From Planoprotostelium fungivorum (lineage: Eukaryota; Evosea; Variosea; Cavosteliida; Cavosteliaceae): DNA of 64,000 nt. The DNA lies in contig MDYQ01000081.1 of NCBI GenBank assembly GCA_003024175.1, positions 124,001 through 188,000 of the forward strand. The letters are read 5' to 3'. The translations under genes were made by a program, and so were the position numbers. Under the pieces are notes generated by a model that was given only the letters and a program-made list of their open reading frames with translations, was not told the origin of the DNA and made no database searches. Shown here one piece after another: positions 436 through 63,047 of this stretch. The number at the start of each line of letters is the position of its first letter. Positions within the stretch are counted from its first letter, which is position 1.

Positions 436-3400
436 TCAAATCAAACTCTTGGCCGTTGCATTCCTCGGCTCGGCCAACAGCGACATCTCGTACAACTTGC
501 TGTCTGATGTCTGAGGCAGCTGCTCCAAGATGTCCGACAGCATCTTACTCCTCTGCAAGTTGTAGCCGATGGTCTGGTTCTGCTCGATCCTAGACAGAAT
601 CTTGTAGACGAGCTTCCTCTTCTCAAAGTTGATCCTGCCCGGTGTCACAAAGTCGGGCGTCTCATCGATGAAGGTCAAGTCCATGAGGTACGTGCCGCTG
701 TGGAGATTTAGAAGAGAGAAATGGAATGGATGGAGGGTGAGAGAGACAGGAGAGAGATGCGGAAATGTCCGCGAGGCTCACATGTAAGGCACGCAGGGAG
801 GAACGGCCATATCTACGGCCTGCCTGGCGTACTTGAAAGAAGATTCCATGCTCGTGAGCTTCTCAAGATTGGCTAGACTGGCCTCCACCCTCTTTGGTAG
901 ACTTCCCCTCGTCCATTTCAGACGAAGTGTAGACGAATGGTTGAGTCCAGAGATGACTGCAGTTAAGAGGTGGTAGTTCTGCAGCTCTTTCAGGCACTCG
1001 GCCAATCTGACGACCTGACAGAAGCGCTGATGAGGTCAGAAAATCGATCTACAACGAGGCGATGACATTCAGAGAGAACATCTCACGTTGCGGCGGTGCT
1101 TCAGCTTCTTCTCGTTGACGACGGCTGTGGCGACCCAATTTGCAGTGTAGTTGAACGTGTTGATGAGGTTGATGACGTTCGGTGCCAAGTGTTGCAATTT
1201 GGGACGACTCCAGGCCTGGTTGAAAAGCTCGATGGGCTGGAAGGCCGTCAATCTACAACGAGCCACTCCCGACCCCCACCTTGATGCTACTGTACAGGTC
1301 GAAGGTGCGCAGGGTGAGCTGTCGGGCGATCTCCATGGCATCTGCAATGTCTAAAATGCCCCCCTCTCTACCCTCTTTTCCTTCCTTTGGAGGTACGAGC
1401 GGCTGAACTCGTTTCAGTTCCCGCCACGAGACACTTTTCAAATTTCAAATCTTCTCACGATGATGTCGGGCGGTGGGGTGAGGTACTTGTGACCTTCTCC
1501 TGGTTTGTTGAGCTTGTTAGCGATGGACTTCTTCAGACGAGCTCGAATGCTGTCCAATTGATTGAAAGAGGCGACGTCGGTTTCGATCATGTGAGAGATG
1601 TTCGACATGACCTGAGTCCTTCAGAAACAATAAAATAAGATGTACAACGAAAGATTTCGAGTGTAGAGTGAAGATGAAAGAAGTGAGAGATGCACCTGAG
1701 GGTGGATCTGTTGAGTTGTAGACAGCCAGTGCTTCAGACAAGTGCACACTCTCATCCTGATCAGATTCTTCTTCTCCTCTGGAAATTCCAAACTGTCGGG
1801 TATCTTGAACCTCTCCCACAACTTTTTCAGCAGTTTCTCTTGCGTACAGAACGACTCGAAGGTGGACAAGAAGGTCTTCAGATAAGACATGTCGAAGCCT
1901 TCGTTCGTGTCTGATGTCAGTTGGATGACGAGCTCGTTGAGGGTGAAACCTCCCTCCGTTGTCTTGAGAACGTCTTTCGGTGAGCTCTCGTCCCAAATGT
2001 TGATGTCGTCCTGCTCGCCTGCGATCGCGTCGGTGAAAAATGGCGGGTTGTAGATGGAATCGTTGTAGATGAACTCACTCTGGGCGTTGATATTTTCGTT
2101 CTTGCTGATGTAGATGGTGGTCGTGGTGGGACCGATCTGATCGTAGAGGGGGGCCCATGGTAGCAGGGAGATGACTTTGCCGCTCTCCATGACCTACACG
2201 GGAACGTCAGGGAAGTCGGTTCTACAACGAGTCACTCACCTGCATGTCGTATTCAGATGAAACGCCGGGCAGCTGAAGGGCCTCGTGGATTTCGTTCAAG
2301 ATCTGGCTGACGTGATTTGCAAAGAATATTTCTTTCTGCTTTTCTTCAGTTTTCTTCAATGTGATAAAAAACAAAAAATGACTTGACATAAATTTTCGAA
2401 GAAAATATTTCAAAACAATTCTTCTATTGAAATATGAAAAGAGAAAAGAGAAATCACCTCTTCGTGTGGCCCTTGTAGATGTTCGGGGTTGTTCATGTCA
2501 GCGTTGATGTATATGCTCGCTATCTTCGGTCGAGGGTGGGGAGCGTACAGTACCGTGATCTACAACGAGTCACATCTTTCCCGCCAAAATGTGTCCTCAC
2601 GTTTCCCTTCTTCTTCGTGTACTGACTCAGCTTGCTGTCTCCGTCCAACCACATGTACTTTCCTTCATCCTGCTTGATTCCGATGGCAAACTGTGCAAAT
2701 TGTTTCATCGAATTGGGGTTCAACTTGAAAGCGATGGAGGCTATGAATTCCTACGTTTTTCATCAGAATCCTCATTTCATTTCTTCTATTTCGAGAAAAA
2801 TTTTAATATTTTCCTGTGAAATTAATTCTCTCGAAAATTTTCAAATTTCAAATTTTTCTCACTTTGACTGGCCGTTCACCGTTGGCCTCTAATACCAGAG
2901 GAGGCTTCTCATCCGTAAAGGTCACCGTGACGACGGGAGGCTTACGTGCCATGTCTAAGACGTTCTTGTTCTCTTCGATGAGAGTTTGATACTGAGACAG
3001 ACGACTGGAATCGCCGAACCAAGTCACGCGATCGGCATTCGCTCGCACGCAGAGTCCGAAATCGGCATCTTCGGAATCCCGATCGGGGTATTTCTTGAGA
3101 ATGGTTGCCACGGCATCCACCGTGGTCGTGTTGGGGTCGAGTGAGACCTGGCGCGTTGTAGATGAATCCTCCGCTAGATCTCTCACCATCTCTGGGGACT
3201 GTCCTCCGTCTTCGAAACGTATCGTTACGTTCCACCACTGTTGTTTCATCTCCAAGATCTGCTCTCCTGAATTCACGTCAGATCCATCTACAACGAGCCG
3301 TACATCGATCTACAACGAGACGGACGTCCATCTACAACGATTCTCACCCTTGATGTTGTAGTCTTTCATGATGAATTTCGATTCATCCATCCAAGTGGAA

Positions 3401-5588
3401 AGGAAGACGAGAGATTGTCCTTCCAGAGAACCTGCGGGATAGAGCCTCTTTACGCTCGATACGACATCTTTCACCGTTGTCGTATCGCTGTAAGGTACGA
3501 CACAGGTAGAGCCTCTACCTCCGTTGAAGACTAAAACCCTATGATATCATGAGAATCTCCACGACATCACTTGTGATCATCATCATGATCGCGATCGTCA
3601 TGACAGAAACTCACTTTAAGAGGTGGCTGTTGTTGTCACCAAAGACGGGATAAGCGTCTTTACTGTCTAAATGTTCTTCCTCAGCCAACTCCTTCAGCTC
3701 ATCCATACTCTGCTCTAAAATATCCAATTGCAATTGTACCTCCGTGTCTCGATTGTCTCTCATATCCTACCCCCATCAGTCTTCACGTTACGTTACGTTA
3801 CGTACCGCCGTCAGGCTGTTGAGATTTAATTCGAGTAATTGGGACCGTACGGTCTGTCTCAATCGATTGTCCTCTAAATTGTTGAGGAGGGTAGAGAGGA
3901 TGCACATGCAGAAGACAGTGCATTGATTGTCTCCCGCTCTCATGATACGAGACAGCACTTCGAATTGATTCATTTTCCCGTGATTCTGTGCGTATTCTTG
4001 CAGGGCACCGGTCACGTATCTACAACGAGTCAATCGTGACGTGGGGCGACGAAAGATCGGCGGGTTGTAGATGGAAAACTCACAGGTAACCCGTGGGGAA
4101 TAGAAAGAATTCGTTCAGTACATCGAGGACGTTGATTCTCAAGTCTTCGTGCTCGATCTGTGCGACGACTGTCTTCAGGAGAGAGCTGCGGCTCCCACTG
4201 ATTCCCAGGTATTTCCTCACATCCTGGCAATCCTGGTGTTTCCGTGAGATGAAGGTCGTTCCCGGGAAAACCTCACATCGCGGGAAATGACGATACGGAT
4301 GCAAGTCAAGGCCATCTTCTGTTTCAGAATGTCCATGGAGTGATCCTCCCTGTCATCATCATCAGCTCATGATGTGTCTTAAGAGGAGACCCACGTCGGG
4401 GAGTCGGTGAAGATCGTCAAGAGGGTGCCCATTCCATCCTCTTCTAGGAATTTGTTGACCCACTTGATGGGTTCTTTCTCGATGGCCTGGCTGAGGTCTC
4501 TCAGCATGTCCACTACCTGTCATCGCGTCATCATCTACCTTCTATATCTCTCGGTTCGTGATGATGATGAGAATCATCAGAGTGATGAGAGGAGTGGATG
4601 ATGGACCTCACCTCCTCTGGAAGTTGGGCGTTCTTTCTAAGTGTCTCGACGAATTCTTTTGGTTTCGTGTTGTCGTTGCCCAAGACCTTTCGAATGGACA
4701 ATTTGTTCCATCGGACTGTCCCAATCAGTTTCGAATAAAATGAAATAAAATGACGTCGAGACCGATGGGAGGTGAGATGGATGGAGATGATGACACACCG
4801 GATTTGCTGTTGTTTGAGATGGAGCGGCTCTTCTTTAGCTTCTCCTTCCCGGTGGATACTACAACTCCCAAACCGAGACCTGGTGATGTTGGCGGGGAGC
4901 CCTCTCCTGGTAAGTTTGTGAAATCATCACTGGGTGGAGCTGCAAGGGTCAGATATAGAGGTAGGGATTGAAGGATTCACTGGATAAGAGGTTCATAACG
5001 GAATGATGCTTCGTCAAAGTGAACTGTCGGAGTTGTCTCATGCGCTCTTCGCGACGACCTGTGAGGGTGAGAAGAGGAAAGAAGGATTCTCGTGTCGATG
5101 GATCGTTATGTCATTCGATAAAGTGAAAAATGACAAAACATCGGGAGGACCACGTGGAATAGAGAAATCATGTGTCTCACCCGTAGGTGATGTCTGAGCA
5201 CTTAGATTAAAGTCTATATCGGTATTACTTGGTTTTCTATGAGGGGAGTTTGGATCGAGGGAGGCATCCTCCAGCGACATGCTGCCCATTCGGAGAGAGC
5301 TTCGGAGTGTCTTCTTTCCCTCGTTGTCTCTGATGTCTTTGAGTCTACCGTATGGGACATTTTCCACCTCTTTTGAGATGTGTGTGGTGGAAGGACTCAC
5401 TTCTTATCTTCACTACTGAAATCATGGCTCATCTTGTCTTCCGAACGAGATCGACCGGCCGCAATGGTGCCCGATCTCGAAAGCGACAGCTTCTTCTCGG
5501 AAGACAGCGATGGCTTCACTCCTCGAACGTATGTATTCGAGGGTGCATTGTTGGTGTTGGACATTGCCTCTGTTATAGACACTCCCAC
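436..5588 (-). CDS. GBD/FH3-RasGEF fusion protein, multi-exon
   Basis: Predicted guanine nucleotide exchange factor for Ras-family GTPases. The C-terminal catalytic CDC25 domain (exons about 436-1440) shows RQLTLRTFDLYSSIK, PIELFNQAW, NVINLINTFNYTANWV and FIDETPDF. An N-terminal REM domain lies at about 1690-1960 (GGFTLNELVIQLTSD). Upstream, exons at about 3790-4750 give a formin-type GTPase-binding/FH3 armadillo module (FVETLRKNAQLPEEV, AIEKEPIKWVNKFLEEDG). Two or three ubiquitin-like or RA-like segments lie between (about 2520-3560). Introns are short; several junctions resolve in frame, for example 2535-2600 and 4020-4083. The first exon and start (about 5588) are uncertain because the junction near 5400 does not resolve cleanly. 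The layout suggests a Rho-type GTPase or scaffold input controlling Ras activation. Domain calls are from family resemblance. Confidence 0.85.
3285..3347 (-). repeat. Intron with three direct copies of CGTTGTAGAT
   Basis: On the minus strand this RasGEF intron carries CGTTGTAGAT three times within about 60 nt, in the same orientation as the transcript. The likely acceptor is the later GTGAATTCAG, so the motif is not simply the splice acceptor here. Confidence 0.6.
4020..4083 (-). repeat. Intron with terminal inverted repeats
   Basis: A 64-nt intron of the RasGEF gene. On the coding strand it opens GTGAGTTTTCCATCTACAAC and closes GACTCGTTGTAG, so CTACAAC near the donor is mirrored by GTTGTAG at the acceptor. 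The splice joins ...GYL to YVTGALQ in phase. The same motif recurs in other introns of the window. Confidence 0.7.
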
Positions 5589-21080: not shown

Positions 21081-21162
21081 GACACCTTGGCCGAGTTGGT
21101 TATGGCGGTAGACTAGAAATCTACTTCCTTCGGGAGCACAGGTTCGAGTCCTGTAGGTGTCG
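21081..21162 (+). tRNA. tRNA-Ser(AGA), copy 1
   Basis: 82 nt. Anticodon stem GTAGA/TCTAC with loop CTAGAAA gives anticodon AGA. It has a long variable arm, T-arm ACAGGTTCGAGTCCTGT, acceptor GACACCT/AGGTGTC and discriminator G. A T-run terminator follows. There is no intron. Confidence 0.95.
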
Positions 21163-23102: not shown

Positions 23103-23184
23103 CCGACACCTACAGGACTCGAACCTGTGCTCCCGAAGGAAGTAGATTTCTAGTCTACCGCCATAACCAACTCGGCCAAGGTGT
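23103..23184 (-). tRNA. tRNA-Ser(AGA), copy 2
   Basis: Identical over the 82-nt body to the copy at 21081, in the opposite orientation. The 5' flank acaacaa just before the gene is also shared. Confidence 0.95.
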
Positions 23185-23479
23185 CTTGTTGTGCATCGCA
23201 CCAGGTGATGTCGTAATATATATGATCGCCACTAGTTCGAAGTCTCTTGAGAAGTAGAAGAGGTCTGATAAGAAGTGTATGGATTGCTCTGCAATTACTG
23301 GTGTATCAATGCACTGGACGATGTTACGATATTACCCAGGTGACAGTCACTAACACAAGCAGATTCATTTGTCTCGGGCTGGTCACGTGATACTTCGGAC
23401 CTCCCCGAAACTCGGCAGCGTTATCAGCTAGAGCTGCATCATTTATAAGACAAACCTTACCTCACACCTTCGATTCAAC

Positions 23480-29625: not shown

Positions 29626-29707
29626 CGACACCTACAGGACTCGAACCTGTGCTCCCGAAGGAAGTAGATTTCTAGTCTACCGCCATAACCAACTCGGCCA
29701 AGGTGTC
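29626..29707 (-). tRNA. tRNA-Ser(AGA), copy 3
   Basis: Same 82-nt body as the copies at 21081 and 23103. The 3' flank, read along the tRNA (GGTTTTTGCTGATTTT), is nearly shared with copy 1 (one T shorter there), so the duplicated unit extends past the gene. Confidence 0.95.
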
Positions 29708-29783: not shown

Positions 29784-30008
29784 ATGGAGGGAATTATTGA
29801 CCTTCACACGTATATTATGTTTTACCTAGTTGGTATTGTTGTGTTTGTGTTTGTGGCGGTAGGCCTTACTCTTCAGGAATTTTACTACAACACCCCGTAC
29901 CGGGGCCGCCCCAAACGAATGGCGGTAGCCCGGGTAGTTCATTCTACCTGGTTGGAACTTGTTTGGACGTTAACCCCGTTGTTGGTACTTGTGTCAATTG
30001 CGGTTCCA
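29784..30008 (+). pseudogene. NUMT: 5' end of mitochondrial cox2 in nuclear DNA
   Basis: 225 bp align without gaps to the mitochondrial cox2 start at 31069, with seven differences, all transitions. Two change residues in RPERMAAARV (Glu to Lys, Ala to Val). Similarity stops at 30008, inside the gene, and A+T-richer non-mitochondrial sequence follows. No N separates it from the tRNA-Ser at 29626-29707, so it appears to lie physically in the nuclear contig. It is too short to encode a functional subunit. Confidence 0.85.
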
Positions 30009-30446: not shown

Positions 30447-30447
30447 N

Positions 30448-31059
30448 GGTAGGCCTTACTCTTCAGGAATTTTACTATAACACCCCGTACCGGGGCCGTC
30501 CCGAACGAATGGCGGCAGCCCGGGTAGTTCATTCTACCTGGTTGGAACTTGTTTGGACGTTAACCCCATTGTTGGTACTTGTGTCGATTGCGGTTCCATC
30601 TTTTGCGTTGCTATACTCAATGGAAGAAAAATTTGACGTTGCTCTTACCCTTAAGGTGGTGGGCCACCAGTGGTACTGGGAGTATCAATATGCGTTTACT
30701 GACGCGGTACACGGCGATGTATACTTTGGGTTTGACTCGTATATGATTCCGGAGGGGGACTTACCAACTGGGGGTTACGTCTACTTGAAACCGACACAAC
30801 CGTAGTACTTCCGGTGTACCACCGGCTTCGGGTGTTGACTACCTCGAACGATGTAATTCACTCGTGGGCGCTACCCGCGGCGGGAGTAAAAATGGATGCT
30901 ATCCCCGGTCGGTTAAACCAGGTTAACCTTTATTTTAATCGACCTGGTCTTTTTTACGGTCAGTGTTCTGAGTTGTGCGGAGTAAACCACGGGTTTATGC
31001 CGATCGCGGTAAAAGCGTTAGAAGTGTCGCGGTTTCGAGAGTGGGCCCACAATGTTTAA
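30448..31059 (+). CDS. cox2, partial overlap copy
   Basis: Internal start to stop of cox2. It has one G fewer than the full copy in the run near 30773, which breaks the frame here. This looks like a run-length error, because the other copies are open. Confidence 0.85.
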
Positions 31060-45977: not shown

Positions 45978-47218
45978 GGGGCCGCCCTGTGGGGGGGTCC
46001 TGGGGTGTGGCCGTTATGGGGGGTCACCCTAGTGGTGTGGGCCACCGTGGTGGTTCCCACCGGGAACTGGGGAACCACCGTGGGGGTGGACACCCCCACG
46101 GTGTACTGGGGGGCCCCCCACGGGGGGACTACCCTGGCCGATTTTACTTTTTTGTTAGTAGTTGCCACCGCCGGGGTGGCCGGGGTAGTTCTCCAGGGGC
46201 GTCCCCACGGGGTAGAACAACTACTTCTTGGTGGGATCGCGGTGGGGGCGGGCTGGGCCACCCTCCACACGGACCATCTTGTAGTGTTGTATCTTAACCT
46301 CGAGTTGCAAGCGCTTGCGTTGTACACCCTTGTTGGGTATCACCGTCACCACACCCCCGCCATGGACGCGGCTCTTCGATACCTACTGGCGGGGACGTTA
46401 GTTTCTGGGTTTACCCTGTACGGATTTGTTGGGGTGTACCTCCACACCGGTGGGTTTACCCTTGGGGAGGGAACCCCACCGGAAAGTCCTTGGATTACCG
46501 CGATGGTTCTGTTTAAGTTAGGAGCTTTTCCATTTTGGTTTTGGACACCTCCGGTGTATGACCCCCTTGACTGGGGAACTCTTGCCCTAGTGGTAGGCCC
46601 GGCAAAGGTTAACCTTTGGTGGCTGGCCACGGTGGGGTTAGCTCCGGTAGTGGGGACCACTACGGTAGCCGTCGCCGCGGTGGGCTCGGTGGGGGTTGGC
46701 GCGGTTGGAGGATACTTTCAGGTGACTGCGGCGGGAGTTCTAGCGTATTCCGGGGTGATCAACGCGGGGTATCTTTTAGTTTTAACTTGGGCGGGCACCC
46801 CCTGGGGGTTGCGTACTACTTGGGGGTGTACCTGGTAGGAACCGCCCTTGTGGTGGCGGTTGCCTCCCCTATGGTGGCGACCGGGGTGGCCCACCTGTCG
46901 GGGTGGGTCGCTCTTGGAGCGGCCACCCCACTACTTTTGTACTACGGGGTACTTAACCTGGGTGGGCTTCCGGTGTGGCCCGGATTTTTTGGTAAAATCT
47001 GGCTTGTTACCTGGGGGGTTACCCTGGGGTGGGGTCTAGTAGTTGTAGTAGTAGCGGCTTCTATCTTACCGGCGGTATACTACGTGGGGCTAGCGGTGGC
47101 CGCCCTCTTTGAGGGGGGCCGACCCGGCCGACCTGGGCGGTGGTCTCCCCTGACGGGGGTGGCTCTTACCCTTGGGGGGACCGCTCTTGTTGCTAGTGTA
47201 ACCGTTTTTGTAACGTAG
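45978..47218 (+). CDS. NADH dehydrogenase subunit 2, to stop
   Basis: Complex I membrane subunit. Runs to AYSGVINAGYLLVLTWAG, then changes frame at a G/C run near 46790 (probable run-length error) and continues GVAYYLGVYLVGTALVVA to [11 protein letters not shown]. The TAG stop (47216-47218) lies inside the following tRNA-Ser. Confidence 0.92.
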
Positions 47219-47283
47219 CTCAATGGCTCCAAGAGCATCGGCTTGCTACGCCGGTGGCACAGGTTCAATTCCTGTCGTTTTGG
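47209..47283 (+). tRNA. tRNA-Ser(GCU), mitochondrial
   Basis: 75 nt. D-stem GCTC/GAGC, anticodon stem TCGGC/GCCGG with loop TTGCTAC (anticodon GCT), T-arm ACAGG/CCTGT, discriminator G. The variable loop is only 4 nt, unlike the long arm usual for Ser. The acceptor (TGTAACG/CGTTTTG) pairs at positions 4-7, but the first three pairs are T-G, G-T and a T-T mismatch. It overlaps the nad2 end by 10 nt. Confidence 0.75.
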
Positions 47284-47284
47284 A

Positions 47285-47711
47285 ATGAACTCAACCGAAT
47301 TAACACGTTTTATCACCGGGTGGCGCGGGTATCTTCTAGGTCAGCGACACCAATGGTACCCACATCAACGAGTGGGGGGAACCCGTACGGGTTGGCTTGT
47401 TGCCGCTCCGGTGCACCAGGTGCACCAGTTTAAACGGGTGGCACATCTTTTGGGAGGGTTATTTGTTGGTGGGGCAACCTTGTGGTTGTACGGAGTGGCT
47501 CAGATCAACATGGGAGAACGACCTCGTCGGGAGTCTGACTACCAAGACCATCCTAACGAGTTTTGTTGGGGACGATCTTGGGCGTTGTGGTGGTCCGGCC
47601 AATTAAGTAACTCGGTCTATATTCGTTGGCGTCGATCCCGAACAGATCGAGCGGCTGTACGACTAGGTCGACCCTACCCGTATCGTCGGGTGGTCCGCCG
47701 CCGGCGAAGTC
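47285..47711 (+). CDS. rps2, 5' overlap copy
   Basis: Starts [18 protein letters not shown] right after the tRNA. This copy has six Gs at about 47375 and is open, whereas the copy at 47954 has five and shifts. Confidence 0.55.
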
Positions 47712-47712
47712 N

Positions 47713-47887
47713 TGTAGTAGTAGCGGCTTCTATCTTACCGGCGGTATACTACGTGGGGCTAGCGGTGGCCGCCCTCTTTGAGGGGGGCCGACCCGGCCGA
47801 CCTGGGCGGTGGTCTCCCCTGACGGGGGTGGCTCTTACCCTTGGGGGGACCGCTCTTGTTGCTAGTGTAACCGTTTTTGTAACGTAG
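47713..47887 (+). CDS. nad2, 3' overlap copy
   Basis: Last 57 residues of nad2 with the stop. Confidence 0.9.
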
Positions 47888-47952
47888 CTCAATGGCTCCA
47901 AGAGCATCGGCTTGCTACGCCGGTGGCACAGGTTCAATTCCTGTCGTTTTGG
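47878..47952 (+). tRNA. tRNA-Ser(GCU), overlap copy
   Basis: Identical to the gene at 47209. Confidence 0.75.
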
Positions 47953-47953
47953 A

Positions 47954-49060
47954 ATGAACTCAACCGAATTAACACGTTTTATCACCGGGTGGCGCGGGTA
48001 TCTTCTAGGTCAGCGACACCAATGGTACCCACATCAACGAGTGGGGGAACCCGTACGGGTTGGCTTGTTGCCGCTCCGGTGCACCAGGTGCACCAGTTTA
48101 AACGGGTGGCACATCTTTTGGGAGGGTTATTTGTTGGTGGGGCAACCTTGTGGTTGTACGGAGTGGCTCAGATCAACATGGGAGAACGACCTCGTCGGGA
48201 GTCTGACTACCAAGACCATCCTAACGAGTTTTGTTGGGGACGATCTTGGGCGTTGTGGTGGTCCGGCCAATTAAGTAACTCGGTCTATATTCGTTGGCGT
48301 CGATCCCGAACAGATCGAGCGGCTGTACGACTAGGTCGACCCTACCCGTATCGTCGGGTGGTCCGCCGCCGGCGAAGTCGACGGCGACCTCGCCTAACTC
48401 GACGGTGGGCTCGCCTTCGCCGGGGGGGGCGATTACCTCGTGGGTGTTACCGGGCGCCCCCCGTGGTTCAAGCGTTGACCCGATGGTGGCGTCAACGTGT
48501 GCGTCAACCCGGGTGGGACCACCCTGTTGAATCAACCCCGTTGTACCGACGTCGTTGGGGAGGTTTCCCGGTGGTGGGCCCAGCTGGGCTAACACCCGGG
48601 TGGGTTCGAATTTGGACCACCCGGGTGGTCCAACGCCATCGTCGACGTCGTGGGTGGACCCCCCCTGGTGGGGTTCGCCGGTGGGGTACCCCGGTGGGGT
48701 GGACTCGACCGACTTATCGTCCGCGTCGGCCGGCTCGTCGCCACCGTCGGCGAACATCTCGAACTACTCGGTGGTTGTCACGGTTTCAACAATGGCCTAG
48801 CTTTTTTCCCGGGGTGGTAGCCACTACCGCGACTGGGGTAACTTCTGTTTTGATGGAGGAAGCTCACGCGGTGGGATTGCCCACGGTGTTGTGGGCCACC
48901 GGGGTGGCCCCCGGACTAACTCCGTGGGCGGTGGCATGGCCGGCCACCCGGTTAGACGGGCTAGCTCGGTGGTTAACCCTCGTTTGGGGGTGGTTTCGAG
49001 GAGCTGCCCTAGTGGGGGCTGCCGTTCGCCGCCTAAGCGTGGGTCTTTCTCACCGGAGTA
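47954..49060 (+). CDS. Probable ribosomal protein uS2, Arg-rich
   Basis: Likely small-subunit ribosomal protein. Early region: [18 protein letters not shown] and [18 protein letters not shown], comparable with the S2 'fvgTK' and 'RWlGGtLtN' regions. C-terminal region: [18 protein letters not shown] followed by [16 protein letters not shown], matching the S2 pattern 'av.EA..lgIPvv...D......ipgND'. Between them lies a long arginine-rich insertion not usual in S2. The frame shows no stop before trnL and stays open through it into atp9, so the true 3' end is unclear. One G-run shift lies near the start. Confidence 0.55.
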
Positions 49061-49142
49061 GTGCGCCTGGCGAAATGGTAGACGCGATGGACTTAAAATC
49101 CATTCAGACTTACTGGTGTCGGTTCAAGTCCGACGGCGACGA
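49061..49142 (+). tRNA. tRNA-Leu(UAA), mitochondrial
   Basis: 82 nt with the class II long variable arm. Loop CTTAAAA gives anticodon TAA. D-region TGGCGAAATGGTAGACGC and T-arm GTCGG/CCGAC are standard. Acceptor GTGCGCC/GGCGACG pairs at positions 4-7, while pairs 1-3 are G-G, T-C and G-A mismatches. This fits a precursor that needs 5' editing. Confidence 0.93.
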
Positions 49143-49203
49143 ATCCGGACGGTCCGGGGAAGTCCCTGGCCGGCACGGTCACGACGTACACACACACGAG
49201 TAT

Positions 49204-49425
49204 ATGGCAGAATTAGGAAAATTAGTTGGAGCAGGACTGGCCACCATCGGCCTTGTTGGAGCAGGAGCAGGGGTAGGTATTGTTTTTGGATCTTTGATTT
49301 TGGCAACTTCACGAAATCCGTCTCTTCGGGCAGAACTATTTCGCTTGGCTATTCTAGGGTTTGCCCTTACCGAAGCGGTTGGACTACTTGCGTTGATGAT
49401 GGCGTTTTTGATTCTATTCCGGTAG
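49204..49425 (+). CDS. ATP synthase subunit c
   Basis: c-ring subunit of the F0 proton rotor, 73 residues in two helices. [20 protein letters not shown] is the glycine-rich first helix; [18 protein letters not shown] is the loop; the second helix carries the proton-binding glutamate in [21 protein letters not shown] 49204 is chosen by family length. The upstream frame is open from rps2 through trnL. Confidence 0.97.
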
Positions 49426-50568
49426 GTGCGTATTAAAAACGGATTTTTAACTCGGGCGTTGTACTACGCCGGAGTAAACCATACCACTCCGGCAAACCTA
49501 ACCTACGCGTGGAACTTCGGCTCTCTTGCGGTGTTGTGTTTGGTGTTTCAAATTGTAACAGGGGTTTCCCTTGCAATGCATTATCCCCCTGATGTGGACC
49601 TAGCGTTTGCCTCGGTTGAACACATTATGCGGGACGTTCCAGGAGGGTGGCTTGTTCGTTACATGCACTCTAACGGGGCGTCAATGTTTGTTATTATTGT
49701 GTACGCCCATATCGGACGTGGATTGTACTACACCTCGTACGTGTGGCCTCGACAAGGGGCTTGGGCGTTAGGAGTAATTTTATTCTTACTAATGATTGTT
49801 ACCGCCTTTTTGGGGTACGTTCTACCGTGGGGTCAGATGTCTTTTTGGGGGGCAACCGTAATTACTAACTTAGTGGGAGCGGTTCCCGTGTTGGGGGGTG
49901 ATATTTTAATTTGGTTGTGGGGTGGTTTTTCCCTAGGTAACGCCGCCCTAACTAGATTTTTTGCTCTTCATTTTGCGTTACCCTTTGTTATTGCTGGGGT
50001 GGCTGCCGTTCACATTGGTTTAGTTCAACATTTTAGTTCAAATAATCCGTTAGGGGTTCCCTTTATGGTGGACTCTATTCCGTTTACTCCGTACTACTTG
50101 GTAAAAGATGTGTGGGGGTTTGTTTTGTTTGGATTTTTCTATGGCTTCTTTGTTTTTTTTGCCCCTAACTTGTTAGGTCACCCGGACAACTACATTTTAG
50201 CTAACCCGATGGTGACTCCAGCACATATTGTGCCGGGGTGGTATTTTTTACCCTTTTACGCTATTCTACGAGCGGTTCCCGACAAGTTTGGGGGTGTACT
50301 TGCGATGGCGGGGGGAATCCTAGTTCTTTTGGCGTTGCCTTACCTTTCGGTGGCAGATCTTCGAAGCATGCAGTTTCGTCCTTTGTCTCGGGTGGTATTC
50401 TGGCTGTGGGTTGGAAACTTTTTATTTCTAGGACTTATTGGTGGACTTCCAGCGAAGGCGGTTCTTGCGCCAACCCTTATTGTTGCGGGGTTGGTGTATT
50501 TCGGGTATCTACTAGTAGTTCAGCCTGGACTAGACCGTTTAGAAAACTTTCTAGGTCGTCATCGTTAA
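49426..50568 (+). CDS. Cytochrome b
   Basis: Complex III core subunit with two heme b sites, 380 residues. It starts at a GTG directly after the atp9 stop (no spacer). Heme-region motifs: GSLAVLCLVFQIVTGVSL, MHSNGASMFVIIVYAHIG, GYVLPWGQMSFWGATVIT and FALHFALPFVIAGVAAVH. The Qo-site motif, normally PEWY, reads PGWY in this copy but PEWY in the overlap copy at 50908, so the Gly is almost certainly a base-call error. Ends LENFLGRHR. Confidence 0.97.
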   Translation: MRIKNGFLTRALYYAGVNHTTPANLTYAWNFGSLAVLCLVFQIVTGVSLAMHYPPDVDLAFASVEHIMRDVPGGWLVRYMHSNGASMFVIIVYAHIGRGLYYTSYVWPRQGAWALGVILFLLMIVTAFLGYVLPWGQMSFWGATVITNLVGAVPVLGGDILIWLWGGFSLGNAALTRFFALHFALPFVIAGVAAVHIGLVQHFSSNNPLGVPFMVDSIPFTPYYLVKDVWGFVLFGFFYGFFVFFAPNLLGHPDNYILANPMVTPAHIVPGWYFLPFYAILRAVPDKFGGVLAMAGGILVLLALPYLSVADLRSMQFRPLSRVVFWLWVGNFLFLGLIGGLPAKAVLAPTLIVAGLVYFGYLLVVQPGLDRLENFLGRHR

Positions 50569-50586
50569 TCACGGTGTACATGTATG

Positions 50587-50658
50587 GGGGGTGTAGTTTA
50601 CCTGGTAAAACGGTTGATTTGCAGTCAGTAGAAACGAGTTCAAGTCTCGTCACCTCCA
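50587..50658 (+). tRNA. tRNA-Ala(UGC), mitochondrial
   Basis: 72 nt. Loop TTTGCAG gives anticodon TGC. Acceptor GGGGGTG/CACCTCC is fully paired and contains G3-T70, the universal alanine identity pair. D-stem GTTT/AAAC, T-arm ACGAG/CTCGT. Two wobble pairs sit in the anticodon stem. Confidence 0.88.
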
Positions 50659-50698
50659 GGGTTGTTTAGGTTACTACTTGGTTTGGGTTTACCCACAC

Positions 50699-50906
50699 AT
50701 GAAAAATAAATTTAGCAAACTTTTCGAAAAAGAAGTAACTCAGCTTTTTGAAGGTTGGGAAAAAGCCGATGTTGGACGAGTAGTTTCCGTGGGAGACGGA
50801 ATTGTTCGAGTAGCCGGTGTAGCTGGAGTTCGCTCGGGGGAGCTACTTCACATTGACACCCGAACCGGGGTGGTAAGTGCGATGGCTCTTAACCTTGAAA
50901 AAGATT
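50699..50906 (+). CDS. atp1, 5' overlap copy
   Basis: First 69 residues of atp1, [18 protein letters not shown] onward, cut by the N. Confidence 0.9.
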
Positions 50907-50907
50907 N

Positions 50908-51415
50908 CTTTATGGTGGACTCTATTCCGTTTACTCCGTACTACTTGGTAAAAGATGTGTGGGGGTTTGTTTTGTTTGGATTTTTCTATGGCTTCTTTGT
51001 TTTTTTTGCCCCTAACTTGTTAGGTCACCCGGACAACTACATTTTAGCTAACCCGATGGTGACTCCAGCACATATTGTGCCGGAGTGGTATTTTTTACCC
51101 TTTTACGCTATTCTACGAGCGGTTCCCGACAAGTTTGGGGGTGTACTTGCGATGGCGGGGGGAATCCTAGTTCTTTTGGCGTTGCCTTACCTTTCGGTGG
51201 CAGATCTTCGAAGCATGCAGTTTCGTCCTTTGTCTCGGGTGGTATTCTGGCTGTGGGTTGGAAACTTTTTATTTCTAGGACTTATTGGTGGACTTCCAGC
51301 GAAGGCGGTTCTTGCGCCAACCCTTATTGTTGCGGTGTTGGTGTATTTCGGGTATCTACTAGTAGTTCAGCCTGGACTAGACCGTTTAGAAAACTTTCTA
51401 GGTCGTCATCGTTAA
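50908..51415 (+). CDS. cob, 3' overlap copy
   Basis: Last 168 residues of cytochrome b, here with the normal PEWY motif. Confidence 0.93.
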
Positions 51416-51433
51416 TCACGGTGTACATGTATG

Positions 51434-51505
51434 GGGGGTGTAGTTTACCTGGTAAAACGGTTGATTTGCAGTCAGTAGAAACGAGTTCAAGTCTCGTCAC
51501 CTCCA
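51434..51505 (+). tRNA. tRNA-Ala(UGC), overlap copy
   Basis: Identical to the gene at 50587. Confidence 0.88.
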
Positions 51506-51545
51506 GGGTTGTTTAGGTTACTACTTGGTTTGGGTTTACCCACAC

Positions 51546-53051
51546 ATGAAAAATAAATTTAGCAAACTTTTCGAAAAAGAAGTAACTCAGCTTTTTGAAG
51601 GTTGGGAAAAAGCCGATGTTGGACGAGTAGTTTCCGTGGGGGACGGAATTGTTCGAGTAGCCGGTGTAGCTGGAGTTCGCTCGGGGGAGCTACTTCACAT
51701 TGACACCCGAACCGGGGTGGTAAGTGCGATGGCTCTTAACCTTGAAAAAGATTCAGTTGGAGCGGTAGTGTTGGGAAAAGACGCAGAAATTGCTCAAGAT
51801 GACCCGGTTCGTCGATCAGGAGCTCTACTTTCCGTTCCGGTGGGACCCGCCCTTGCGGGTCGGGTAATTGATCCACTTGGACGCCCTCTTGATGGGGCCG
51901 GCCCGATTCAGTCGGCCGCCACCGCCCCGGTAGAGACTAAGGCGCCCGGTATTCTTCAGCGAAAATCAGTGCACCAACCTTGTCAAACCGGAATCAAAGC
52001 TATTGACAGTTTGACTCCGATTGGTAAGGGTCAGCGTGAACTAATTATTGGGGATCGCCAAACCGGAAAAACCGCTCTTGCGGTGGACACTATCATTAAC
52101 CAACGGGGTGATCACGACGCTGGACATACATCAGCGTTGTGGTGTGTGTACGTTTCGGTAGGACAAAAACGTTCTACCCTAGTTCAAATTGTTGAGGCCC
52201 TACGTGGGGCGCGTGCCCTTGAGTATACCACCGTGGTGGCCGCCACCGCGTCGGAGGCGGCCTCACTCTTGTATTTGGCGCCTTATGCGGGGGCGGCGGT
52301 AGCAGAGTGGTACCGAGATAACGGGCGCCACGCGGTAATCGTGTACGATGATCTTTCTAAGCAGGCGGTTGCCTACCGGGAGATGTCTCTACTTCTACGA
52401 CGGCCACCTGGCCGGGAAGCTTACCCCGGGGACGTGTTTTATCTTCACTCTCGGTTGTTGGAAAGAGCAGCTAAATTGTCCGACGCGTTAGGAGCTGGGT
52501 CGCTTACTGCGTTACCCGTGGTAGAAACCCAAGCCGGGGACGTTTCCGCTTACATTCCAACCAACGTAATCTCGATTACTGACGGTCAGGTTTTTCTTGA
52601 AACCGAGATCTTCTACCGAGGAATTCGCCCTGCAATTAACCCGGGTCTTTCAGTTAGCCGGGTGGGATCTGCCGCCCAGGTAAAATCGATGAAACGGGTT
52701 TCAGGATCATTGAAGCTAGATCTAGCCCAATATCGTGAGATTGCGGCGTTCAGCCAGTTTGGATCGGACCTTGATGAGTCAACTACCCGGCTACTAAACC
52801 GAGGGGTGCGCTTGACCGAGATGTTAAAGCAACCTCAGTATCAGCCGCTGCCTGTAGCCGATCAAATGGTAACCATTTTTGCTGGAACTAATGGATATTT
52901 TGACGGATATCCAGTGGCCGAGGTAGGCGGGGTAGAACGTTACCTACGAGAGGTAACTGGCCGACCTTTCTGGCGGGGGCTGCTAACCCAGATGGGGGCC
53001 GCCGACGTGGACACCACCCTAATGCGAGTGGTGTGTGATACCCTTCTGTAA
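51546..53051 (+). CDS. ATP synthase F1 subunit alpha
   Basis: Non-catalytic nucleotide-binding subunit of F1, 501 residues. Start [18 protein letters not shown]; a GTG at 51525 is an alternative. Walker [16 protein letters not shown], then [36 protein letters not shown] and the arginine-finger region [19 protein letters not shown]-terminal helices end [11 protein letters not shown]. Complete and uninterrupted, with less G+C-biased wording than its ribosomal neighbours. Confidence 0.98.
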
Positions 53052-53072
53052 AGCGTGAGGTTTTTTTCTTCT

Positions 53073-53143
53073 AGTAAAGTAGTTCAAAGGTAGAACAACG
53101 GTCTCCAAAACCGTCGATAGGGGTTCAACTCCCCTCTTTGGTG
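53073..53143 (+). tRNA. tRNA-Trp(CCA), mitochondrial
   Basis: 71 nt. Anticodon stem ACGGT/ACCGT with loop CTCCAAA gives CCA. D-stem GTTC/GAAC, T-arm AGGGG/CCCCT. The acceptor AGTAAAG/CTTTGGT is paired except a G-G mismatch at position 2 and a T-G at position 3. Anticodon CCA with UGA used as a stop supports the standard code. Confidence 0.92.
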
Positions 53144-63046: not shown

Positions 63047-63047
63047 N

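Follow-up and report, generated by a model that had tools for sequence, protein, structure and literature searches.

The question raised by the locus described here is whether mitochondrial transfer RNAs (tRNAs) whose genes encode unpaired acceptor ends are corrected after transcription and, if so, at which end. The locus lies in a window of 64,000 nucleotides (the whole stretch of DNA that was analysed, C11:124001-188000) from a eukaryotic assembly deposited as Planoprotostelium fungivorum (36.9 Mb in 471 contigs). The window is nuclear in its first part and mitochondrial from position 30448 on, and the mitochondrial DNA (mtDNA) continues past its right edge into a stretch termed L001, whose positions convert to C11 positions by adding 188000. 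Based on four tRNA genes in the window, it had been proposed that mismatches limited to the first three acceptor pairs mark substrates of the 5' editing described in Acanthamoeba. The recovered mtDNA contains 13 distinct mitochondrial tRNAs, four in the window and nine just beyond it, and the pattern extends beyond the three mismatched tRNAs considered originally to all 13, which makes the observation stronger than first noted. We consider it highly probable, from the sequence evidence set out below, that these are genuine mitochondrial genes and that their transcripts are corrected by 5' editing of the Acanthamoeba type.

Acceptor stems of the mitochondrial tRNA genes

Genes were called from Rfam tRNA matches and with ARAGORN; trnC, which Rfam matched only weakly and as tRNA-Sec, was identified by ARAGORN and by hand. 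Pairs 1 to 7 of each acceptor stem were scored as Watson-Crick, G-U, or mismatch. The four genes in the window are all on the plus strand. In trnL(UAA) (49061-49142), pairs 1-3 are G-G, U-C, and G-A; trnW(CCA) (53073-53143) has a Watson-Crick pair 1, a G-G at pair 2 and, besides, a U-G wobble at pair 3; and trnS(GCU) (47209-47283) has a U-U at pair 3 and, besides, a U-G at pair 1 and a G-U at pair 2. The three mismatches of trnL, the G-G of trnW, and the U-U of trnS had all been part of the original prediction, as had the intact pairs 4-7, which are indeed Watson-Crick in all three genes, and the three tRNAs are thus predicted editing substrates. trnA(UGC) (50587-50658) is fully paired, as had been stated, with a single wobble at G3-U70, an alanine identity element; it needs no repair, and editing is not expected. 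The other nine genes form a cluster at L001 3009-3665 (C11:191009-191665). Three of these, trnP (L001 3009-3079), trnK (3153-3224), and trnE (3592-3665), share with trnL(UAA) three mismatches at pairs 1-3 followed by four Watson-Crick pairs; trnC (3218-3288) is mismatched at pairs 1 and 2 and Watson-Crick at pairs 3-7; and trnM (3083-3154), trnL(CAA) (3290-3371), trnR (3374-3446), trnH (3447-3519), and trnQ (3520-3591) are Watson-Crick throughout.

The acceptor stems thus hold 16 mismatches, in 7 of the 13 tRNAs, and all 16 fall within pairs 1-3 (39 pairs), as do all four G-U pairs; the 52 pairs at positions 4-7 are without exception Watson-Crick. The probability that 16 mismatches would all hit the 39 outer of 91 acceptor pairs by chance is 1.4e-7, and mismatches are far more frequent in the outer acceptor pairs (16/39) than in the other stem pairs (7/234; Fisher p 1.7e-10). 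Apart from the acceptor stem, mismatches number 0/65 in the T-stem, 4/52 in the D-stem, and 3/65 in the anticodon stem. These genes therefore combine mismatches confined to pairs 1-3 with an otherwise intact cloverleaf in mitochondrial tRNAs, and a cloverleaf that is nearly perfect elsewhere indicates that they are not decaying pseudogenes.

The same pattern was not seen in two control sets. The nuclear control comprised 17 sequences of the same genome, 12 of them distinct and some near-copies; 16 were hand-picked from 63 well-scoring matches and one came from the window, a choice biased towards good scores. In the 12 distinct nuclear tRNAs, the outer pairs are Watson-Crick in 36/36 cases, and the 48 inner pairs hold three mismatches and nine G-U pairs, lying in pairs 4-6, the reverse of the mitochondrial pattern. 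For the second control we used a covariance model (R1) built on positions 4-69 from 11 mitochondrial tRNAs (all but the two tRNA-Leu), which is blind to pairs 1-3; it matches its 11 tRNAs by construction and also recovers both tRNA-Leu (28.8 and 29.3 bits). Applied to 64 viral_contigs loci that surround cob homologs, homologs that served solely as a tRNA control, R1 found 19 tRNAs, all from 4 of the 64 loci. Their 57 outer pairs include one mismatch and seven G-U pairs; their 76 inner pairs include two G-U pairs and no mismatch. The confinement of mismatches to pairs 1-3, proposed as the mark of Acanthamoeba-type 5' editing, holds across the 13 mitochondrial tRNAs found.

A scan of the recovered mtDNA with R1 yielded no further convincing tRNA gene; in the window, the accepted genes scored at least 28.8 bits and the best other match 11.2 bits. 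ARAGORN also reported a tRNA-Val (48553) and a tRNA-Gly (63246), both rejected as absent from the Rfam tRNA matches and from the R1 hits, and a 21-bit minus-strand R1 match in L001, antisense to the Gln and Glu genes, was likewise dropped.

Thg1-family genes and the predicted repair pathway

The original prediction pointed to Thg1-like proteins (TLPs) in the nuclear genome, and a search with PF04446 found three nuclear loci of the Thg1 family (C181, C119, and C451), two of them TLP-type. The genes were spliced by hand, without transcripts, and the C451 model that was searched lacks the first residues and the last exon. C181, with a HINNLYN motif, a Thg1C domain, and 3otb as its nearest chain, is by these features a bona fide Thg1. 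For both C119 and C451 the closest solved structure is 4kgk, a Thg1-like protein from Bacillus thuringiensis; both retain the LDG and SDEIS motifs, which carry the metal-binding carboxylates, and HINNLYN was not found in either gene model. We class these two as TLPs, having a Thg1 catalytic domain that is nearer to the bacterial TLP than to Thg1 by best structure match. C451 is read from the first ATG that follows a stop in its frame, and its first 24 residues contain four K/R and no D/E; the N-termini of C119 and Thg1 (C181) contain early acidic residues. Judged by N-terminal composition, C451 would be compatible with mitochondrial import and is the best candidate for an imported editing enzyme; by the same criterion, C119 may reside in the cytosol.

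From the mismatch positions and the Thg1-family genes we infer the following pathway. A putative nuclease would remove up to three mismatched 5' nucleotides after transcription, and an imported nuclear-encoded TLP, with C451 as the best candidate, would then add nucleotides to the 5' end by 3'-to-5' polymerisation, with positions 70-72 as its template. Predicted substrates are 7 of the 13 tRNAs (Leu-UAA, Ser, Trp, Pro, Lys, Cys, and Glu); Ala, Met, Leu-CAA, Arg, His, and Gln would not need mismatch repair. tRNA-His (L001 3447-3519) has C73, and the base encoded at -1 is an A, the discriminator of tRNA-Arg, rather than a G; a G-1, if present, is therefore added post-transcriptionally, possibly in a separate reaction by the same or the second TLP, unless the synthetase dispenses with G-1. 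The mitochondrial tRNA-Glu gene has A71-C72 as in two E. coli tRNA-Glu genes (both with odd stem lengths) and has lost their 5' G-T start, which lends weak support to the 3' strand being the template; for tRNA-Pro, no E. coli relative was found.

Editing at the 5' end is supported by the restriction of the mismatches, the encoded TLPs, and the apparent placement of the organism in the Amoebozoa. The last was judged from one 167-residue myosin II fragment, which scores 254 bits against Dictyostelium myosin II and 204 bits against the best vertebrate myosin; an 18S gene is also present in the assembly. Such an affinity would suit Protostelium aurantium, which is said to be mislabelled as Planoprotostelium fungivorum in NCBI (PMC10639083); identity with that species is our guess. 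Several points weigh against the proposed pathway. The case for import of C451 is one of composition. Its start was set by an in-frame stop upstream rather than by transcripts, and the isoleucine-rich N-terminus might also serve as a signal for a membrane or for secretion. The recovered mtDNA is also incomplete (cox1 is represented only by its N-terminal part, and nad1 and rnl are unmatched), and the true tRNA set may therefore be larger.

Comparable systems are known from several lineages. In Acanthamoeba castellanii, 12 of 15 mitochondrial tRNAs have mismatches at pairs 1-3, and the nucleotides concerned are removed and pairing ones put in (PMC4284800). The present organism resembles A. castellanii in its pair 1-3 mismatches and in having two TLPs in the genome; it differs in that 7 of the 13 tRNAs found are mismatched, in the G+C content of the recovered mtDNA (57%), in its neighbouring tRNA genes, which have 2 and 7 nt in common, and in the presence of a bona fide Thg1, which A. 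castellanii is described as lacking (PMC4284800). In Dictyostelium discoideum, 5' repair is assigned to DdiTLP3 and addition of G-1 to mitochondrial tRNA-His to DdiTLP2 (PMC4284800, PMC6471195). Shared with D. discoideum are a Thg1 together with several TLPs, a trnA G3-U70 that is left alone, and an overlap between tRNA genes whose downstream tRNA is edited there and predicted to be edited here (PMC4284800, PMC6471195); unlike D. discoideum, which has a 1-nt overlap and three TLPs, the present organism has 2- and 7-nt overlaps and two TLPs found. For Acrasis kona (8/11 mitochondrial tRNAs) and Naegleria (8/20), 5' editing was likewise predicted from mismatches in the first one to three acceptor pairs (PMC4202320), although these belong to a different lineage and Acrasis mtDNA is A+T-rich. 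With these data, a probable amoebozoan whose mtDNA is G+C-rich joins the lineages for which 5' tRNA editing is predicted, and candidate enzymes are named. In kind, 5' editing is ordinary for Amoebozoa; the unusual, new element is the overlap among trnM, trnK, and trnC.

Overlapping trnM, trnK, and trnC genes

trnM and trnK have 2 nt in common, and trnK and trnC have 7 nt in common, Lys 67-73 being Cys 1-7. In both overlaps, the downstream tRNA is the one mismatched at its 5' end (Lys 1-3 and Cys 1-2).

Mismatches by themselves do not tell which strand is altered, and the transcripts might instead undergo 3' editing of the Lithobius or Seculamonas type, in which positions 70-72 are changed so as to match the 5' end as encoded. 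Overlap between tRNA genes has been linked with 3' editing in animals, where mitochondrial genes overlap by 1-6 nt, the downstream tRNA is released complete, the 3' end of the upstream tRNA is repaired, and alternative processing has been excluded (PMC4284800). The genes described here share the overlap with these animal cases, but in both overlaps the mismatched end is the downstream 5' end, the mirror image of the animal arrangement. Mismatches limited to three pairs and a genome with two TLPs also suit 5' editing, the Glu 3' letters A71-C72 bear their weak resemblance to the bacterial relative, and Trp G73 and Cys U73 look canonical by the tRNA identity rules. We regard 3' editing as the general explanation as very unlikely.

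With 5' editing as the working interpretation, the two overlaps make different demands. The 2 nt common to trnM and trnK lie within the editable positions, so that release of a whole trnM and rebuilding of Lys 1-3 would resolve this overlap. Given the 7 nt common to trnK and trnC, in contrast, one transcript cannot yield both tRNAs, and editing of three nucleotides is insufficient. We tentatively propose, as a plausible reading that falls somewhat short of being probable, that trnM-trnK-trnC is a natural test of 5' editing on overlapping tRNAs, in which more than three nucleotides of the Cys 5' end (up to the whole strand) would be rebuilt or the Lys 3' end would be repaired as well. A 7-nt rebuild is favoured by the mismatches at Cys 1-2 and by a TLP from Ignicoccus that adds up to 13 nt in vitro (PMC6471195). 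Such a rebuild has to contend with the intact Cys pairs 3-7 within the overlap, since rebuilding of the full strand would not demand pairing. Cys 3 is Lys 69, which is pinned by its pairing with Lys 4; among the intact positions Cys 3-7 it is the only one so pinned. Cys 4-7 are Lys 70-73, which editing leaves free, and their pairing therefore suggests that they are used in tRNA-Cys, which weighs against a full rebuild. The mismatched Lys and Cys 5' ends argue against a scheme that releases an entire downstream tRNA and repairs the 3' end of the upstream one, though intact Cys 3-7 would permit it. With regard to origin, copying from positions 70-72 could relax the constraint on the Lys 3' end, which might then drift far enough to double as the Cys 5' end.

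Duller alternatives for trnK and trnC are that the two tRNAs are processed separately from different transcripts or, possibly, that the 7-nt overlap is an assembly error of several bases, as the cluster is single-copy in the assembly. trnK and trnC (L001 3153-3288) also have a 19-nt T-arm stretch in common, an identity that may stem from recombination or conversion between adjacent tRNA genes, and part of the match between the two genes may thus be history.

A 2014 review treats the use of 5' editing on overlapping tRNAs as unsettled, names only the 1-nt Dictyostelium overlap, and states that 5' and 3' editing have not yet been found in one organism (PMC4284800). Among open-licence papers we recognised no later work that settles the overlap question, most of the subscription literature lying outside this search. 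If the proposal holds with added repair of the Lys 3' end, 5' and 3' editing would occur in one organelle. The trnM-trnK-trnC overlaps make it testable whether 5' editing can release overlapping tRNAs, which we consider weightier than the addition of a new lineage.

Assembly context and mitochondrial origin of the genes

Mitochondrial genes in the window comprise cox2 (recognised by eye, without a family search), an antiporter-type nad subunit, atp9, cob, and atp1, followed in L001 by the tRNA cluster and the small ribosomal RNA gene (rns). cob (49426-50568) and atp1 (51525-53051), both on the plus strand and in this mitochondrial context, are open frames in the standard code.

The mitochondrial stretch is flanked by nuclear DNA on both sides, with pieces resembling nuclear copies of mtDNA (numts) at the joints, so that the tRNA genes might themselves be numts or pseudogenes and their mismatches decay. 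At the left joint, a numt-like cox2 piece of 225 nt (window 29784-30008, 7 differences) lies in the nuclear stretch that precedes an 'n' at 30447; at the right joint, 348 nt of rns (L001 4826-5173 in C11) match positions 1925-2272 of C425 at 95%, and one edge of this piece is a switch from mitochondrial to nuclear-looking sequence in both contigs. The simplest reading is that a single nuclear rns numt exists through which two chimeric contigs were assembled; the cox2 and rns pieces would explain the chimeric scaffold, and the nuclear-mitochondrial junction is apparently a misassembly artefact. Joints at numt-like pieces and at an 'n' are what misjoining predicts. A second copy of the trnS-trnW stretch was looked for in the assembly and not found, and recurrence of the stretch from the tRNA cluster to rns is limited to the 348 nt of rns. 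Decay, moreover, would not leave 52/52 inner acceptor pairs and 65/65 T-stem pairs intact or the cob and atp1 frames open, and we consider a numt or pseudogene origin extremely improbable. Equally improbable is that these tRNAs function unedited. Single mismatches or G-U pairs (Ser, Trp) might be tolerated, but in four tRNAs none of the three terminal pairs can form and in a fifth two cannot, and broken terminal stems are expected to impede 5' processing, CCA addition, and charging.

Single 'n' letters occur 19 times in the mitochondrial stretch (window 30447-63752), and at most of these joints the preceding sequence (up to 858 bases) is written again after the joint; the 'n' at 63047 has no such repeat across it. 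Many mtDNA genes therefore look duplicated or frameshifted. In 16 duplicated pairs of 248-858 bases, a count that leaves out the row for the 'n' at 30447 (the cox2 numt) and one row repeating its neighbour and whose last pair is truncated by the window edge, the alignments total 11,559 bases and show 41 substitutions and 13 indel bases. This disagreement (about 0.35% substitutions) is too low an error to produce 16 mismatches in 182 acceptor bases and would have no reason to strike only pairs 1-3. A second trnS (47878-47952, plus strand) behind the 'n' joint at 47712 and a second trnA (51434-51505, plus strand) behind that at 50907 are very probably assembly duplicates rather than additional genes, because the sequence before each joint recurs after it (667 bases with no substitution and one indel base, and 846 bases with three substitutions, respectively).

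C425 carries sequence for the N-terminus of cox1 and the 3' end of rns, and R1 found no tRNA in its first 10 kb. Probes for nad1 and a typed rnl probe had no match in the assembly, the empty rnl result proving little.

Nothing in the sequence suggests a changed mitochondrial code: TGA codons are absent from cob, atp1, and cox2, and the sole tRNA-Trp found reads UGG. In tRNA-Ser(GCU) (47209-47283) the variable loop measures 4 nt, where serine tRNAs usually carry a long variable arm, and the D-loop 11 nt. A change in the meaning of AGY codons, suspected from this short variable loop, was rejected because atp1 codon 378 (AGC), the one codon compared with an alignment among the AGC and AGT codons listed in cob and atp1, aligns with a serine conserved in 6tmh and 6yny.

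In the stretch that leads up to the tRNA cluster (L001 ~2001-3000), G+C content falls to 44% from 63-67% in the preceding kilobases, and an open frame there ends at window-equivalent 66800. In the mitochondrial sequence (window 30448-64000 plus L001 1-4825, duplicated stretches being counted twice), the palindrome CCACCCGGGTGG occurs 10 times against a first-order expectation of 0.05, and GGGTGG 199 times against 71 expected; together they are a dispersed G+C-rich repeat. The nuclear part of the window contains three equal-scoring tRNA-Ser(AGA) genes within 9 kb (21081-21162, 23104-23185, and 29626-29707).

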